From assembly GCA_012839115.1 (NCBI GenBank), contig DUNX01000018.1, positions 1 through 54,788 on the forward strand: DNA of 54,788 bases. Reading direction: 5' to 3'. Both the position numbers and the translations under genes were made by a program. How positions within the stretch are numbered: position 1 is the first letter of the stretch; each line of letters begins with the position of its first letter. Shown one piece after another: positions 35,451 to 42,980 of the stretch. The notes below the pieces were generated by a model. The model saw only the letters and a list, made by a program, of their open reading frames with translations. It was not told the origin of the DNA and did no database searches. The DNA is from Bacillota bacterium (GTDB taxonomy: Bacteria > Bacillota > UBA4882 > UBA10575).

Positions 35451-38400
35451 GTGAAAAATAACGTCCGCCGGGTTTATGTGGAGAAAAGGCAGGAGTTTGC
35501 CGGTGAGGCCGGCCGGCTTTACCGGGAACTCCGGGATAATTTAGGGTTGACAGGGTTAACGGGGGCCAGAATTCTTATCCGCTATGATATTGAAGGTTTA
35601 CCGGAAACCGCTTACCGGGAGGCAGAAAAGGTTGTCCTGGCCGAACCGGCGGTGGACCGGGTCTATGATGAAGATTATTTTTTACGCGAAATCGCGCGTC
35701 ACGAAAACCGGGTGCTGGCCATCGAATACCAACCGGGCCAGTATGACCAGCGGGCCGATTTTACCGCCCAGTGCCTGCAGGTTTTAACCGGGGGTGAGCG
35801 GCCGGAGGTGGCGGTGGCCAAATTGCTCGTTCTGACCGGGAAGATCAGCGGGGAAGAGCTGGAGAAGGTCAAAAGTTACCTGATTAACCCCTTGGAGTCG
35901 CGGGAAGCCACCCTGGAAAAACCGGCGACCCTGGCAGAAACGTTTCCGGCAGCGGAGGAGGTGGCGGTTGTCACCGGCTTTATCCAGGCCGGCCCGGAGG
36001 ATTTGCAAAGAATCGCAGAGGAAATGGATCTGGCAATGTCCCGGGAGAGCCTGGAGTTTTGCCAGAAGTATTTCCGGGATACCGCGCGTAGAGACCCGAC
36101 GGTTACCGAATTAAGGATTTTGGATACTTACTGGTCGGACCACTGCCGGCACCTGACCTTCTTAACTGGAATCAAAGAGGTGGAATTTGAAAAAGGAGAG
36201 TATACGGAGTTTTTCCGCCGGGTTTTCCAGCGGTTTTTGGAGAACCGCCGGGTTTTCCCGCGTAGCGTTTCTGGCCCGGGCGATACAGGAGAAATCACAT
36301 TAATGGAGCTGGCTACAGCCGTGGGAAAAGAGATGAAGGCGGAAGGGCTTTTGGAGGATTTAGAGGTTTCCGAGGAGATCAACGCCTGTAGTATTAAGGT
36401 TGATGTGACGGTGGACGGGGAGACCCAGGAATGGTTGGTGATGTTTAAAAACGAAACCCATAACCACCCTACGGAGATCGAACCTAATGGCGGCGCCGCC
36501 ACTTGCCTGGGCGGGGCGATCCGGGATCCCCTTTCCGGCCGGGCCTATGTTTACCAGGCGATGCGGGTCACCGGCAGCGGCGATCCGCGGCAGGAGGTGG
36601 AAAAGACCCTCCCGGGCAAACTGCCACAGCGAAAGATTACCACTGGTGCGGCGGCGGGCTACAGTTCTTATGGCAACCAGATCGGGGTGGCTTCCGGGTT
36701 GGTGGCGGAGGTCTATGATGAAGGTTTTGTCGCTAAAAGGATGGAGATGGGAGCGGTAATCGGTGCGGCGCCCCGGGCCAATGTGGTCAGGGAACGGCCG
36801 GTACCGGGGGATGTCGTGATCTTGTTGGGTGGCCGGACCGGCCGTGATGGTTGCGGGGGGGCTACCGGTTCGTCACGGGCGCATACCGAGGAATCCCTTT
36901 ACACCTGCGGGGCTGAGGTGCAAAAGGGAGACCCGCTTTTGGAACGGAGAATCCAGCGGCTCTTCCGCCGGCCGGAGGTGGCCCGGTTGATTAAAAGATG
37001 TAATGACTTCGGGGCCGGCGGGGTTGCGGTGGCCGTGGGGGAATTAGCGGATGGGTTGGAGATTAATCTGGACGCTGTGCCCAAGAAATATGAGGGTCTG
37101 AACGGTACGGAACTGGCTATCGCCGAGTCGCAGGAGCGCATGGCAGTGGTGGTGGCGAAAGACCAGGCGGAAGCTTTTATCCGGGCGGCCCGGGAGGAGA
37201 ACCTGGAGGCCACGGTGATCGCTGAGGTGACCGCCGGCCGGAAAATGCGGATGGTCTGGCGGGAAAAGACCATTGTCAACTTGGACCGGGACTTTTTGGA
37301 CAGCGGCGGGGTACGCCCCACCACCCGGGTGATGGTTAAGGCCCCGCAGCCGGAGAGTTACTTCCGGCAACTTCCACCAGAAGTGACCAGCGCCGGTGAC
37401 CTGGCCGGCGCCTGGCTCCGTAATTTGCAGCGTCTTGATGTTTGCAGCCGCCGGGGGTTGGTGGAGATCTTTGATAGTACCATTGGGGCGGGAACGATCC
37501 TGATGCCATTGGGCGGGAGTCGCCAGTTGACCCCGGCGGAGAGCATGGCGGCGAAGATCCCGGTTTTGGCAGGAGAAACCACCACCGCCACGCTGATGAG
37601 TTATGGGTACAACCCGGCCATCGGGAGATGGAGCCCGTTTCATGGCGCCCTTTACGCCATTGTCGAAGCAGTGGCACGGATCGCGGCCTCCGGCGGCGAT
37701 TACCGGCGGATCCGCCTCACCCTGCAGGAGTATTTCGAACGGCTGGGAGAAGACCCGGTAAGATGGGGGAAACCCTTTGCCGCTCTTTTGGGAGCGTATT
37801 ATATCCAGAGGGAACTGGGGATCCCGGCGGTCGGGGGAAAGGACAGCATGTCCGGGAGTTTTCAGGATCTTGATGTCCCGCCGACGGTGGTGGCGGTAGC
37901 CGTCTGCCCGGCGGACGCCCGGCGGATCCTCTCCCCGGAATTCAAGGCCGCCGGCAGCCACATCGTCTTCCTCCCGCTCCGCCGGGAGGAAGGGGAGATA
38001 CCGGATTTCCGGCAGATGGCCGCGAACTACGGGCGCCTCTACGAACTGGCCGGTGAAGGCAAGGTTGCTGCGGCGCAGACGGTCCGCGAGGGCGGACTGG
38101 CTGCGGCAGTCAGTAAAATGGCTTTCGGCAACATGATCGGGCTGGCTTTTGCGGAAGAAGCCGGCATTGAACAGTTTTTTGCCCCTGCCTACGGCTCTCT
38201 GGTCCTGGAGATCCCCGCCGGGGAGAACCCAGCAGCCCTCCTGGGGGGATTGGAGTATAAAGAGTTGGGAGCGACCATCGCCGAACCGGTGATCAGGGTA
38301 AACGGGGTGGAGATCCCCCTGGCGGCGGCGGCAGAGAAGTGGGAGGAGCCGCTGGCCGGGGTCTTCCCGCCCTCCGGAACCGGCAAAACCGGCTCACCGG

Positions 38401-39260
38401 CATTGACCCAGCCGGCTCCGGCCGGTGGCGGGGGGCGGGCCAAGGTCATGGTCCGCCTCGCAAAACCGCGGGTTTTGATCCCGGTTTTTCCCGGGACCAA
38501 CGGGGAATATGATACCATCGCCGCTTTCCGGAGCGCCGGCGGTCTTGTCGAGACCCTGGTTATCAAGGATCTTTCTCCCCGGGAAATCGGCGAGAGCCTT
38601 CGCGAGTTGACGAAGATGATTGGGCAGGCGCAGATCCTGGTTTTACCCGGCGGTTTCAGTGCCGGGGACGGGACGGCCGGTTCCGCCGAATTCATGGCGG
38701 CATTTTTCCGGAATCCCATGGTCAAGGAGGCCTTGACCGGGTTTCTGCAAAAAGGGGACGGCCTTGTTCTGGGGATCGGCACCGGTTTTCAAGCCCTGCT
38801 CAAACTGGGACTCCTCCCGTATGGTGAGATCCGGGAAGCCGGTGAGGATTCGCCTGCGCTGGCTGTTAACGCTTCCGGGCGCCATGTTTCACGCTTTGTC
38901 CGGGTAAAAGTCGTTGCCAACCATTCGCCCTGGCTGCGCCGGACAAACCCGGGGGAGGTTTATTCCCTTCCCGTCTCCCACAGTGAGGGACGGTTCATCG
39001 CCCGCCCGGCCGACCTGGAGCGGTTCTTTAAAAACGCCCAAATTGTCACGGTCTATGTGGATCTTGAGGGAGTTCCCACCCTGGACCCGCCATACAACCC
39101 CAATGGTTCGGCCGGGGCGGTGGAAGGGCTGACCAGCCCCGACGGGCGGATTTTTGGCCGGATGGCCCATGCGGAACGGGTCGGGCCTTATGTGGCCAAG
39201 AATATCCCCGGAGAAAAAGACGGGCAAATCTTTGCTACCGGTGTCGAGTATTTCTTCTAA
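35451..39260 (+). CDS. purL: Phosphoribosylformylglycinamidine synthase, fused form, glutaminase nucleophile missing
   Basis: ATP-dependent amidation of FGAR in purine synthesis. 1269 residues, the long clostridial-type fusion of synthetase and glutaminase. Synthetase motifs: TYWSDHCRH, FKNETHNHPTEIEPNGGAATCLGG, FGAGGVAVAV, GGKDSMSG. The C-terminal class I glutaminase starts near 1005 (RVLIPVFPGTNGEYDT, LPGGFSAGDG); catalytic His (SHSEGRF) and the AHAER pair are present, but the nucleophile elbow reads GIGTGFQAL with Gly1110-Thr1111 where the family has Cys-Asn (GICNGFQ). The domain therefore should not hydrolyse glutamine. GTG 35451 has AAGGAAGTGGGG upstream. Isolated from other pur genes. 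Confidence 0.93.
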   Translation: MKNNVRRVYVEKRQEFAGEAGRLYRELRDNLGLTGLTGARILIRYDIEGLPETAYREAEKVVLAEPAVDRVYDEDYFLREIARHENRVLAIEYQPGQYDQRADFTAQCLQVLTGGERPEVAVAKLLVLTGKISGEELEKVKSYLINPLESREATLEKPATLAETFPAAEEVAVVTGFIQAGPEDLQRIAEEMDLAMSRESLEFCQKYFRDTARRDPTVTELRILDTYWSDHCRHLTFLTGIKEVEFEKGEYTEFFRRVFQRFLENRRVFPRSVSGPGDTGEITLMELATAVGKEMKAEGLLEDLEVSEEINACSIKVDVTVDGETQEWLVMFKNETHNHPTEIEPNGGAATCLGGAIRDPLSGRAYVYQAMRVTGSGDPRQEVEKTLPGKLPQRKITTGAAAGYSSYGNQIGVASGLVAEVYDEGFVAKRMEMGAVIGAAPRANVVRERPVPGDVVILLGGRTGRDGCGGATGSSRAHTEESLYTCGAEVQKGDPLLERRIQRLFRRPEVARLIKRCNDFGAGGVAVAVGELADGLEINLDAVPKKYEGLNGTELAIAESQERMAVVVAKDQAEAFIRAAREENLEATVIAEVTAGRKMRMVWREKTIVNLDRDFLDSGGVRPTTRVMVKAPQPESYFRQLPPEVTSAGDLAGAWLRNLQRLDVCSRRGLVEIFDSTIGAGTILMPLGGSRQLTPAESMAAKIPVLAGETTTATLMSYGYNPAIGRWSPFHGALYAIVEAVARIAASGGDYRRIRLTLQEYFERLGEDPVRWGKPFAALLGAYYIQRELGIPAVGGKDSMSGSFQDLDVPPTVVAVAVCPADARRILSPEFKAAGSHIVFLPLRREEGEIPDFRQMAANYGRLYELAGEGKVAAAQTVREGGLAAAVSKMAFGNMIGLAFAEEAGIEQFFAPAYGSLVLEIPAGENPAALLGGLEYKELGATIAEPVIRVNGVEIPLAAAAEKWEEPLAGVFPPSGTGKTGSPALTQPAPAGGGGRAKVMVRLAKPRVLIPVFPGTNGEYDTIAAFRSAGGLVETLVIKDLSPREIGESLRELTKMIGQAQILVLPGGFSAGDGTAGSAEFMAAFFRNPMVKEALTGFLQKGDGLVLGIGTGFQALLKLGLLPYGEIREAGEDSPALAVNASGRHVSRFVRVKVVANHSPWLRRTNPGEVYSLPVSHSEGRFIARPADLERFFKNAQIVTVYVDLEGVPTLDPPYNPNGSAGAVEGLTSPDGRIFGRMAHAERVGPYVAKNIPGEKDGQIFATGVEYFF

Positions 39261-40692: not shown

Positions 40693-41802
40693 ATGGGTGT
40701 TTCGGGAAAAGAAAGAGAAGGCCGGTTGCGGAGGTTCCGGGAGTTGCTGGCTGAAGAGGAATTGGACGGGTTTATTGTTACTTCCCCGGAGAATCGCCGC
40801 TATCTGAGTGGTTTCACCGGGAGTTCCGGTGTTCTTCTGGTCGCGTTGGAATGGGCGGTCCTTTTGACCGATTTCCGCTACTTGGAGCAGGCGGCCACAG
40901 AGACGGCAGGGACCGGTATTGACCTGCAGAAACAGGCAAAGAAGATCTGGGAGAGTGTTGCCAAGCTTTTGCGAGCCCGCACCGGTCCCTTGGCCCGCTG
41001 GGGCTTTGAATCCGACCATCTGGTAGAGGGGGATTACCGGTTTTTAGCCGGGCAGGTGGGGCCTGACCGGCTGGCGCCTAAGGAAGGGTTCCCCGGCCGT
41101 TTGCGGATGGTGAAATCACCGGCGGAGATTGGGTTGATCGCAAAGGCAACGGCCATCACCGACCGGGCTTGGGAACGTTTATTGCCCGAGATTAAGCCCG
41201 GCCGCCGCGAGGAAGAGCTTGCCGCCCTCTTCGAGTTCTTCCAGAGAGAAGAGGGGGCTTCCGCCGCTTCCTTCCCGACATTGGTGGCCTCCGGGCCGCG
41301 CAGCGCCATGCCGCACGGGGCGGCCGGCAGCCGGCCTTTGTGTCCTGGCGATCTGGTGGTGGTGGACGGCGGTGCGGTTTATGCGGGGTATTGTAGCGAT
41401 TTTACCCGCACGGTGGTAGTGGGGGAAGAACCCGGCGCAGAACAGAAGAGGATTTATCGGCTGGTCCTGGAGGCGCAGGAACGGGCGCTGGCCGGGCTTA
41501 AGCCGGGGATGACCGCGGCGGAGGCGGATGCTTTGGCCAGAGAGGTTCTGGAAAAAGCCGGTTATGGTCCGAATTTCGGCCACGGGCTCGGTCACGGCCT
41601 GGGTTTGGCGATCCATGAAGCGCCCCGTTTATCACCGGGCCGGGAGACGGTATTGGAACCCGGGATGGTCGTCACGGTTGAACCCGGAATTTACCTGCCG
41701 GATTGGGGAGGGGTCAGGATTGAGGATGTGGTGGTCATCACCGAAGAAGGCTGCCGGGTTTTGACCCGTAGCCCAAAAACCCCGTTTCCGGTTACCCCTT
41801 GA
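40693..41802 (+). CDS. pepQ: Xaa-Pro peptidase (M24B)
   Basis: Cleaves X-Pro bonds. 369 residues: creatinase-like N-domain ([20 protein letters not shown]), then a pita-bread domain with metal ligands in [20 protein letters not shown] (two Asp), [15 protein letters not shown] (His), VEPGIY (Glu) and VRIEDVVV (Glu). ATG 40693 follows GAGGGTGAAGG. Upstream spacer has GGCATG/CATGCC arms. In Bacillus the orthologue also lies between aroQ and efp. Confidence 0.94.
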
Positions 41803-41903
41803 TACGCTCCCTTGTCCTTGGTACACGCCATGTTATCTTTTGCGGCGGCAGACCGTGCCAGGTTTACGTTTCTATATACGTTTCTCTGAAGGAGTTTGCG
41901 AAG

Positions 41904-42980
41904 ATGTCCTATGGTCTGGAGAGGTTCTGGGAGATCAACCAGGAGTGCCTGGATCTGCGCGGGAAGATCCCGCGAGTACCGGTGCGTCTCCACTTCGACG
42001 GGGACTGGATCTGCGATCTTTTGAAACTTGATCCGGTCCGGTATTACACGGACTTCACCTACCAGCAGGAGAGCAGGTTGCGGTGCAACGTGATTACCAG
42101 GAAAGAACTGGGGTATACCCTTTACCCTGCGGTAGACTTCGGGGTCATCATGGATGCTTCCGTCTACGGGGGAGAAGTAAATTACCATAAAAAAGCCGCC
42201 CCCACTTTGGAGCCGGTGATCACCGAACCGGGGCAAATTAAGGATTTCGTTGCCCGGATGGCGAAGAAGGAACCTCTCGCCGGGGGGTTGGTCCCGAAGT
42301 ATCTGGAATGGCGGGAGAAGATCAAATCAAAATATGGGATAGCACTCCCCGCCGGGGAGGGGATGAAAGGCTGCGCTGCAGTACTAGGCCAATTATGCGG
42401 GGTGACTAACCTTCTGACCTGGCTCCATACCAACCCGGAAGAGATCCGTGCCCTGGTTGAATGCTGGTTTGACACATCTGTCAGGTACCTCCGGGGACTG
42501 CGGGAGGCCACGGGGGTTAAAAGCGGAGGGCTTTCCCTGGCCAGCGACCTGACAGGACTGCTCTCCCCCCAACTTTACCGGGGGTTTTTTTTCGAGGCGG
42601 AAAAGACCCTTTTTACCCTCTTCGCTCCGGGAGAGAAAGACCGCCGCTATTACCACGCGGACTATCATATGAGTCACCATTTCGATTCCTTGCGGGAGTT
42701 GGGGGTGAATCAGGTCAATATTGACCCATACATAATGGCCGCCCAGATCCTGGAGAGCCTGCCCGCAGTGGTTGTCCACGGGCAGGTTCCCCCGGCAACA
42801 GTCCTTTTGCATGGTTCGCCGGCAGAAGTCGAGGCCTGCGTGCGGCGGGATATTTCCCAGGCCGGACCGGGTAAACGGCTAATCCTGACCACCGTCGGCG
42901 GGGTTAACCCCGGGACGTCCTTTGCGAATTTACGGGCGCTTTGTTTTGCGGTTGAGAAATACGGTTATATTTATGGGTAA
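41904..42980 (+). CDS. Uroporphyrinogen decarboxylase-superfamily protein
   Basis: 358 residues, distant URO-D/corrinoid-methyltransferase fold: GLERFWEINQECLDLRGKIPRVPVRLHFDGDW at the start (split motif), YHADYHMSHHFDSLRELGVNQ and ILTTVGGVNPGTSFANLRALC at the end, the usual closing segment of the fold. No corrinoid-binding protein or heme gene is nearby, so the substrate is unknown; methyl transfer is as likely as decarboxylation. ATG 41904 follows AAGGAG by 9 nt; the open frame reaches back to 41799. Confidence 0.75.
   Translation: MSYGLERFWEINQECLDLRGKIPRVPVRLHFDGDWICDLLKLDPVRYYTDFTYQQESRLRCNVITRKELGYTLYPAVDFGVIMDASVYGGEVNYHKKAAPTLEPVITEPGQIKDFVARMAKKEPLAGGLVPKYLEWREKIKSKYGIALPAGEGMKGCAAVLGQLCGVTNLLTWLHTNPEEIRALVECWFDTSVRYLRGLREATGVKSGGLSLASDLTGLLSPQLYRGFFFEAEKTLFTLFAPGEKDRRYYHADYHMSHHFDSLRELGVNQVNIDPYIMAAQILESLPAVVVHGQVPPATVLLHGSPAEVEACVRRDISQAGPGKRLILTTVGGVNPGTSFANLRALCFAVEKYGYIYG

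Follow-up and report, generated by a model that had tools for sequence, protein, structure and literature searches.

How does a phosphoribosylformylglycinamidine synthase (PurL) obtain its ammonia when its glutaminase domain has no catalytic cysteine? This question is raised by the purL gene in the window, the 54,788-nucleotide stretch of DNA from a Bacillota bacterium that we analysed (contig DUNX01000018.1 of assembly GCA_012839115.1). The reading frame is a complete clade-II fused FGAM synthase (TIGR01857, purL), which matches positions 1–1239 of the 1239-position profile with 1649.9 bits, against a cut-off of 1057.05 (Table 1). The initial annotation had described a nucleophile elbow with GIGT in place of GICN and the other triad residues as retained, and both readings proved correct. 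Specifically, nucleotides 38772–38783 read GGG ATC GGC ACC and encode Gly1108-Ile1109-Gly1110-Thr1111 in frame, and positions 1110–1111 are Cys and Asn in all 47 aligned relatives that keep the nucleophile (hereafter Cys+, as opposed to Cys-less). Among the residues that define a class-I (triad) amidotransferase, the window PurL thus lacks the nucleophilic cysteine, which is Gly1110, and keeps the catalytic His1177 and Glu1179 within VSHSEGRF.

Table 1 Features of the fused PurL gene; positions are counted from the first nucleotide of the window.
Feature	Position	Strand	Remarks
Fused clade-II phosphoribosylformylglycinamidine synthase (PurL), 1269 aa	35451..39260	+	GTG start; TIGR01857 full length
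N-terminal and synthetase part	35451..38450	+	Motifs intact; PDB relatives 3viu, 1t3t and others
GATase_5 glutaminase domain, residues 1005-1268, Cys count 0	38463..39254	+	PF13507, 244 bits
Nucleophile elbow GIGTGFQAL (canonical GICNGFQAL)	38772..38798	+	
Gly1110, codon GGC, replacing the catalytic Cys	38778..38780	+	
Gly1018, second conserved cysteine lost (PGTNC to PGTNG)	38502..38504	+	Alignment of 47 Cys+ and 69 Cys-less rows
Altered loop PGGFSAGDGTAGSAEFM (canonical PGGFSAGDEPDGSGKFI)	38646..38696	+	pLDDT <50 at 1069-1075, model unsure
VSHSEGRF, catalytic His1177 and Glu1179 retained, Gly1178 to Ser	38973..38996	+	

The changes in the glutaminase (GATase) domain go beyond what the initial annotation had noted: a second conserved cysteine is replaced (C1018G), the oxyanion loop following PGGFS carries E1074G, P1075T and K1080E, the residue between the catalytic His and Glu is altered (G1178S), and the domain contains no cysteine at all. 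A displaced nucleophile within the domain was therefore ruled out. In the AlphaFold model the domain has a pLDDT of 86.5, its best PDB matches being Salmonella PurL (TM 0.82) and T. maritima PurQ (3d54_D), and the class-I glutaminase fold is predicted to be kept. The synthetase part retains ETHNHP (residue 335), GGAAT (347), GRTGRDGCG (461), DFGAGG (519), STIGAGT (676) and KDSMS (797), together with 10 cysteines. A dead glutaminase domain joined to an intact synthetase is the pattern of the ammonia-dependent carbamoyl-phosphate synthetase I (CPS1), which the window PurL, judged from its sequence, appears to share. Farther along the window, 41799–42980 carries an MtaA/CmuA-like methylcobamide methyltransferase gene, downstream of a Xaa-Pro peptidase-like gene and a LeuB-like dehydrogenase.

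We searched the window's own genome (97% complete) with the TIGR01737 profile and found no separate PurQ; there the model matched the fused domain only, whereas it has matches in all 14 control genomes. The window PurL is the sole fused-PurL or PurQ match in its genome, and the separate PurQ of a split PurL-PurQ-PurS system is missing. The initial annotation had proposed that the enzyme should depend either on free ammonia or on a second glutaminase as its source. All the sequence evidence fits this proposal, and of the two sources free ammonia is favoured because the genome lacks PurQ. Two other genomes of the same genus are also Cys-less (GIGT in G001, GIGA in G002). Elsewhere in the window's family, Cys-less fused PurLs carry GIGD (G006, G014) or GIDN (G007), stand-alone PurQs carry GIAN (G003, G008, G015), GIAD (G010) or GLGN (G009), and four members (G004, G005, G011, G012) keep the cysteine. 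The elbow GIASGFKAL of G035 is Cys-less and was counted in that group. Among 47 Cys-less genomes of the wide scan described below plus G001, G002, G006, G007, G014 and G035, only one contains an extra PurQ, with the elbow GISN.

The state had also been called unusual. Within the phylum it is indeed rare: of 398 genomes sampled, 99 show the canonical elbow pattern, and the Cys-less pattern is confined to 3, each a member of the window's own genus. It is, however, no one-off, and recurs in many lineages. We scanned one genome per species, about 85,000 species (GTDB), with the Cys-less pattern and obtained 85 loci, comprising 66 fused PurLs (named GTDB loci) as well as 13 chance matches without a GATase_5-like ORF and six stand-alone PurQs, both of which were left out of the 66. 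The pattern omits codons starting with T and misses replacements by Ser (TCN), Tyr or Phe, so that 66 is a lower bound. On a tree of 111 fused PurLs, 16 changes between the Cys+ and Cys-less states were counted, and well-supported branches force at least 12 of these. The residue replacing Cys is mostly Gly, followed by Ser, Ala, Asp and Asn, and this mixture indicates that no new nucleophile has arisen. Two PurLs, L035 (labelled Trueperella) and L104 (labelled Anaerolineaceae), stand among clostridial ones on the tree and reflect mislabelled bins, contamination or transfer. The Cys-less locus L051 belongs to Anaerosalibacter massiliensis ND1, apparently an isolate.

In the alignment of Table 1, the His-Gly-Glu motif is intact in all 47 Cys+ sequences; among the 69 Cys-less sequences, the His is lost in 27 and the Glu in 7. 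Cys1018, which lay outside the search pattern, is present in 46 of 47 Cys+ rows versus 10 of 69 Cys-less rows. Losses are most frequent in the elbow, in the PGGFSAGDEPDGSGKF loop, in the His-Gly-Glu motif and at a few other positions, e.g. 1018, 1136 and 1218. The ratio of GATase to synthetase dN/dS is 1.3–1.6 in Cys-less pairs, compared with 0.5–0.8 in the four usable Cys+ pairs (the pair L012/L014 was left out of the comparison, its domain boundary being mis-split). The dN/dS of the GATase domain itself is 0.12–0.24 in Cys-less pairs, which shows the domain to be relaxed yet still under selection, and that of the synthetase part is about 0.15 within the window's genus.

Further glutaminases of the window's own genome are altered as well. 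GuaA (G000:C134:16140-17738, L158) is otherwise full length and has AIGYGMG for GICYGMQ, and the AsnB-like protein begins with MAGIVGI, the canonical start being MCGI. Besides PurL, a class-I GATase scan of this genome returned PyrG, GuaA and one small peptidase-C26-like protein, with no CarA found; GlmS was not found there either, and NagB was. PurF and PyrG retain their cysteine, so the shift is not total. Across the family, the CarA elbow has Gly for the nucleophile (GIGLGHQ and variants) in 7/7 genomes read (L155, L156, L361-L365); G005 has a CarA with a Gly elbow although its PurL is canonical, and PyrG of G004 and G009 (L153, L157) carries Gly for its Cys (GIGLGLQ). Since the states of CarA, PyrG and PurL differ among family genomes, the glutaminases were lost singly and in an order varying by lineage. 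The AsnB-like proteins L187, L183, L179, L181 and L190 start with MAGI or MSGI for MCGI, their N-terminal nucleophile being gone, and a GuaA C-terminal match (G001:C15:24926-25861) contains one in-frame TAG.

On the wider scale, the synthetase part of GuaA was found in 49 of the 54 Cys-less genomes searched. The GuaA glutaminase is absent, truncated or Cys-less in 44 of these 49, versus 0 of 18 Cys+ controls that have a GuaA (Fisher 3.6e-12, ignoring shared ancestry). The 44 consist of 18 ORFs of 311–363 aa in which the domain is absent, 21 truncated ORFs of 418–511 aa and 5 full-length Cys-less forms; the truncated GuaAs were mostly read as sequence, and the ATPPase-only forms, G083 and G106 were judged by open-frame length. 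The ATPPase part of GuaA is intact in Cys-less PurL genomes, and three genomes with ATPPase-only GuaA (G072, G074, G082) gave no TIGR00888 match at all. Full GlmS is missing from 38 of 40 Cys-less genomes versus 2 of 12 Cys+ genomes (Fisher 2.5e-7, again ignoring shared ancestry), two of the 38 having only a SIS-type GlmS-like protein. NagB, which could aminate fructose-6-phosphate at high ammonia, occurs in 25/28 GlmS-less versus 2/10 GlmS-bearing genomes. Only five phylogenetically independent pairs could be formed, too small a number for significance, of which 3–5 were concordant and none discordant per pairing, with a median p of 0.125. Four genomes (G075, G079, G100, G102; L307, L313, L309, L311) carry a Cys+ fused PurL beside the Cys-less one and have either a dual enzyme set or mixed bins; three of them are among the five Cys-less genomes retaining a Cys+ GuaA. 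G079 and G102 contain two GuaAs each, of which one is intact and the other truncated or ATPPase-only.

Termite hindguts are ammonia-rich. Among the 66 Cys-less loci, 17 carry termite-gut sample codes and 35 are biogas MAGs recognized by their study codes (PMC7038595), the environment being inferred from record names. The termite codes Lab288, Th196, Emb289, Nt197 and Cu122 are given in PMC7024585; Pal332, Fux382 and Ehx436 were counted as termite samples from the code form alone. None of the 13 chance loci bears a biogas or termite code. The biogas study can supply at most 1,635 of the about 85,000 species, against 35 of 66 loci, a baseline that is a species ceiling and not a matched Cys+ set, and biogas MAGs are strongly over-represented among the Cys-less PurL loci. 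Total ammonia reached 4.2 g/L in one plant (PMC7038595). The PurLs of the congeners G001 and G002 match the biogas MAGs AS09scLD_55 and AS09scLD_203, and the window organism is therefore most likely from a digester too.

These data support a wider picture than the initial annotation saw, in which the PurL change is part of a multi-enzyme loss across many lineages of ammonia-rich anaerobic habitats. We consider it very likely that the window PurL would operate without glutamine hydrolysis and use free ammonia, keeping the dead GATase domain as a scaffold, within a decay of glutaminases at the level of the organism. The intact, ATP-dependent synthetase part would make FGAM from FGAR with free ammonia diffusing in from an ammonia-rich cytoplasm, while the GATase domain would stay folded and selected as a structural part with its active site dead. 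As the cause we infer high ammonia: at millimolar levels it would render the glutaminase dispensable, and the Cys would be lost first or along with neighbouring residues. Afterwards the domain would be removed where the protein tolerates this (GuaA) and be kept as a scaffold in the fused body (PurL). In ammonia-rich anoxic lineages, the glutaminase functions of PurL/PurQ, GuaA, CarA, AsnB-like proteins and GlmS would thus decay successively, free ammonia making them unnecessary. With less confidence, we regard it as probable that the PurL/PurQ, GuaA, GlmS (NagB taking over), CarA and AsnB-like glutaminases were dismantled independently by members of several bacterial phyla that inhabit anoxic, ammonia-saturated environments, and that these bacteria now require external ammonia for nucleotides and amino sugars.

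Other readings of the same data were weighed against this one. It is unlikely that, alongside the use of ammonia, the dead domain has become regulatory, for instance as a glutamine sensor or a gate. Such a role would suit a domain that remains full length under purifying selection (dN/dS about 0.2), whereas GuaA of comparable genomes has it cut or deleted; however, the residues near the glutamine site are those lost most often, and structural need in a fused PurL is the simpler account of retention. Another cellular glutaminase might instead bind PurL in trans and feed ammonia through the old channel, as the existence of split PurQ-PurL enzymes, the kept GATase fold and the class-I domains present in the window genome (PyrG, Cys-less GuaA and the small peptidase-C26-like protein) would allow. 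The lack of PurQ in that genome, the single extra PurQ among the Cys-less genomes searched, and a docking place still occupied by the dead GATase domain make this quite unlikely.

The faster evolution of the GATase domain could also point to a whole purL gene in decay, the cell heading to purine auxotrophy. We find this very improbable, as the 1269-aa frame is intact with every synthetase motif present and low synthetase dN/dS (0.15), full-length Cys-less PurLs keep KDSMSG in 43/43 cases and ETHNHP in 42/43, and PurF is intact; a pseudogene reading of purL was rejected on the intact motifs and dN/dS. Even less probable is that the Cys disappeared because exposed cysteines were selected against under thiol stress, e.g. 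from sulfide or metals, rather than through release from glutamine. The conserved cysteines 1018 and 1110 are lost together, as thiol stress would have it, but His, Glu and loop residues are lost too, GuaA loses the domain outright, in the case of GlmS the gene itself is gone, and the 10 cysteines of the synthetase part persist in the window PurL. A sequencing or assembly error, named at the outset as what would refute the Cys-less reading, might be suspected of a single draft genome, yet it is practically excluded, since both congeners, whose genomes are independent, and dozens of further genomes show the same state.

Ammonia-dependent FGAM synthesis by a PurL with a dead glutaminase domain can be set beside several known systems. 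Salmonella PurL can use ammonia in vitro once its Cys is removed, and the canonical fused clade-II PurL (GICNGFQAL) shares full-length homology and all synthetase motifs with the window PurL, which differs in having no catalytic Cys, an altered glutaminase pocket and different evolution rates of its domains. The nearest known case is vertebrate CPS1, for which we are aware of no report that further amidotransferases of the cell have undergone a parallel loss. Human CPS1 has Ser294 in place of Cys and takes external ammonia, its S2 domain being an inactive glutaminase (PMC4655335). It therefore resembles the window PurL, where a class-I glutaminase domain is likewise retained but apparently inactive, with the Cys replaced and external ammonia the putative substrate; it differs as another enzyme of another pathway, and as one animal lineage versus recurrent bacterial losses. 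Single-domain NadE performs ATP-dependent amidation by free ammonia with no working glutaminase (PMC3376133), as proposed for the window PurL, although in NadE the glutaminase domain itself is absent. P. falciparum GMPS C89A retains ammonium-dependent activity (PMC9312489), and ATPPase subunits of GMP synthetase are able to work with external ammonia in vitro (PMC10526850). The ATPPase subunit of the archaeal two-subunit GMP synthetase resembles the ATPPase-only GuaA of the 18 Cys-less PurL genomes, but the archaeal enzyme has a separate GATase subunit.

The accepted view is that amidotransferases draw on glutamine in vivo, free ammonia being scarce. Of eight amidotransferases surveyed in about 800 prokaryotic genomes, NAD synthetase alone was listed in a form that lacks a glutaminase component (PMC3376133, Table 1), and no PurL, GuaA, PyrG, AsnB or CarAB without one was recorded among 600–800 genomes each (PMC3376133). 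The ATPPase-only GuaAs and the inactive PurLs are a departure from that survey. We found no earlier report of such loss in the open-access literature, only the CPS, NADS and GMPS precedents. If this is confirmed, whole lineages would break the glutamine-use rule, and the loss would mark life at high ammonia in a way that can be read from the genome and could help to foresee which bacteria of digesters or guts fail once ammonia drops. It would also be a natural experiment separating dispensable glutaminases (PurL, GuaA, CarA, GlmS) from indispensable ones (PurF and mostly PyrG), and why the glutaminase domain is retained becomes a directly testable question.

Cys-less stand-alone PurQs form a further observation. 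Those with GIGNGFQALI and RH-x-EGR (L044, L057, L068, L091) belong to Bacteriovoracaceae, Bdellovibrionales, Oligoflexia and Bacteriovorax, predatory or related bacteria to which the account by ammonia-rich habitats may not apply. The stand-alone PurQs L072, L089 and L310 have GISNG (Elusimicrobia; Spirochaetes Cu122) or GIGNG (a Chloroflexi digester MAG).
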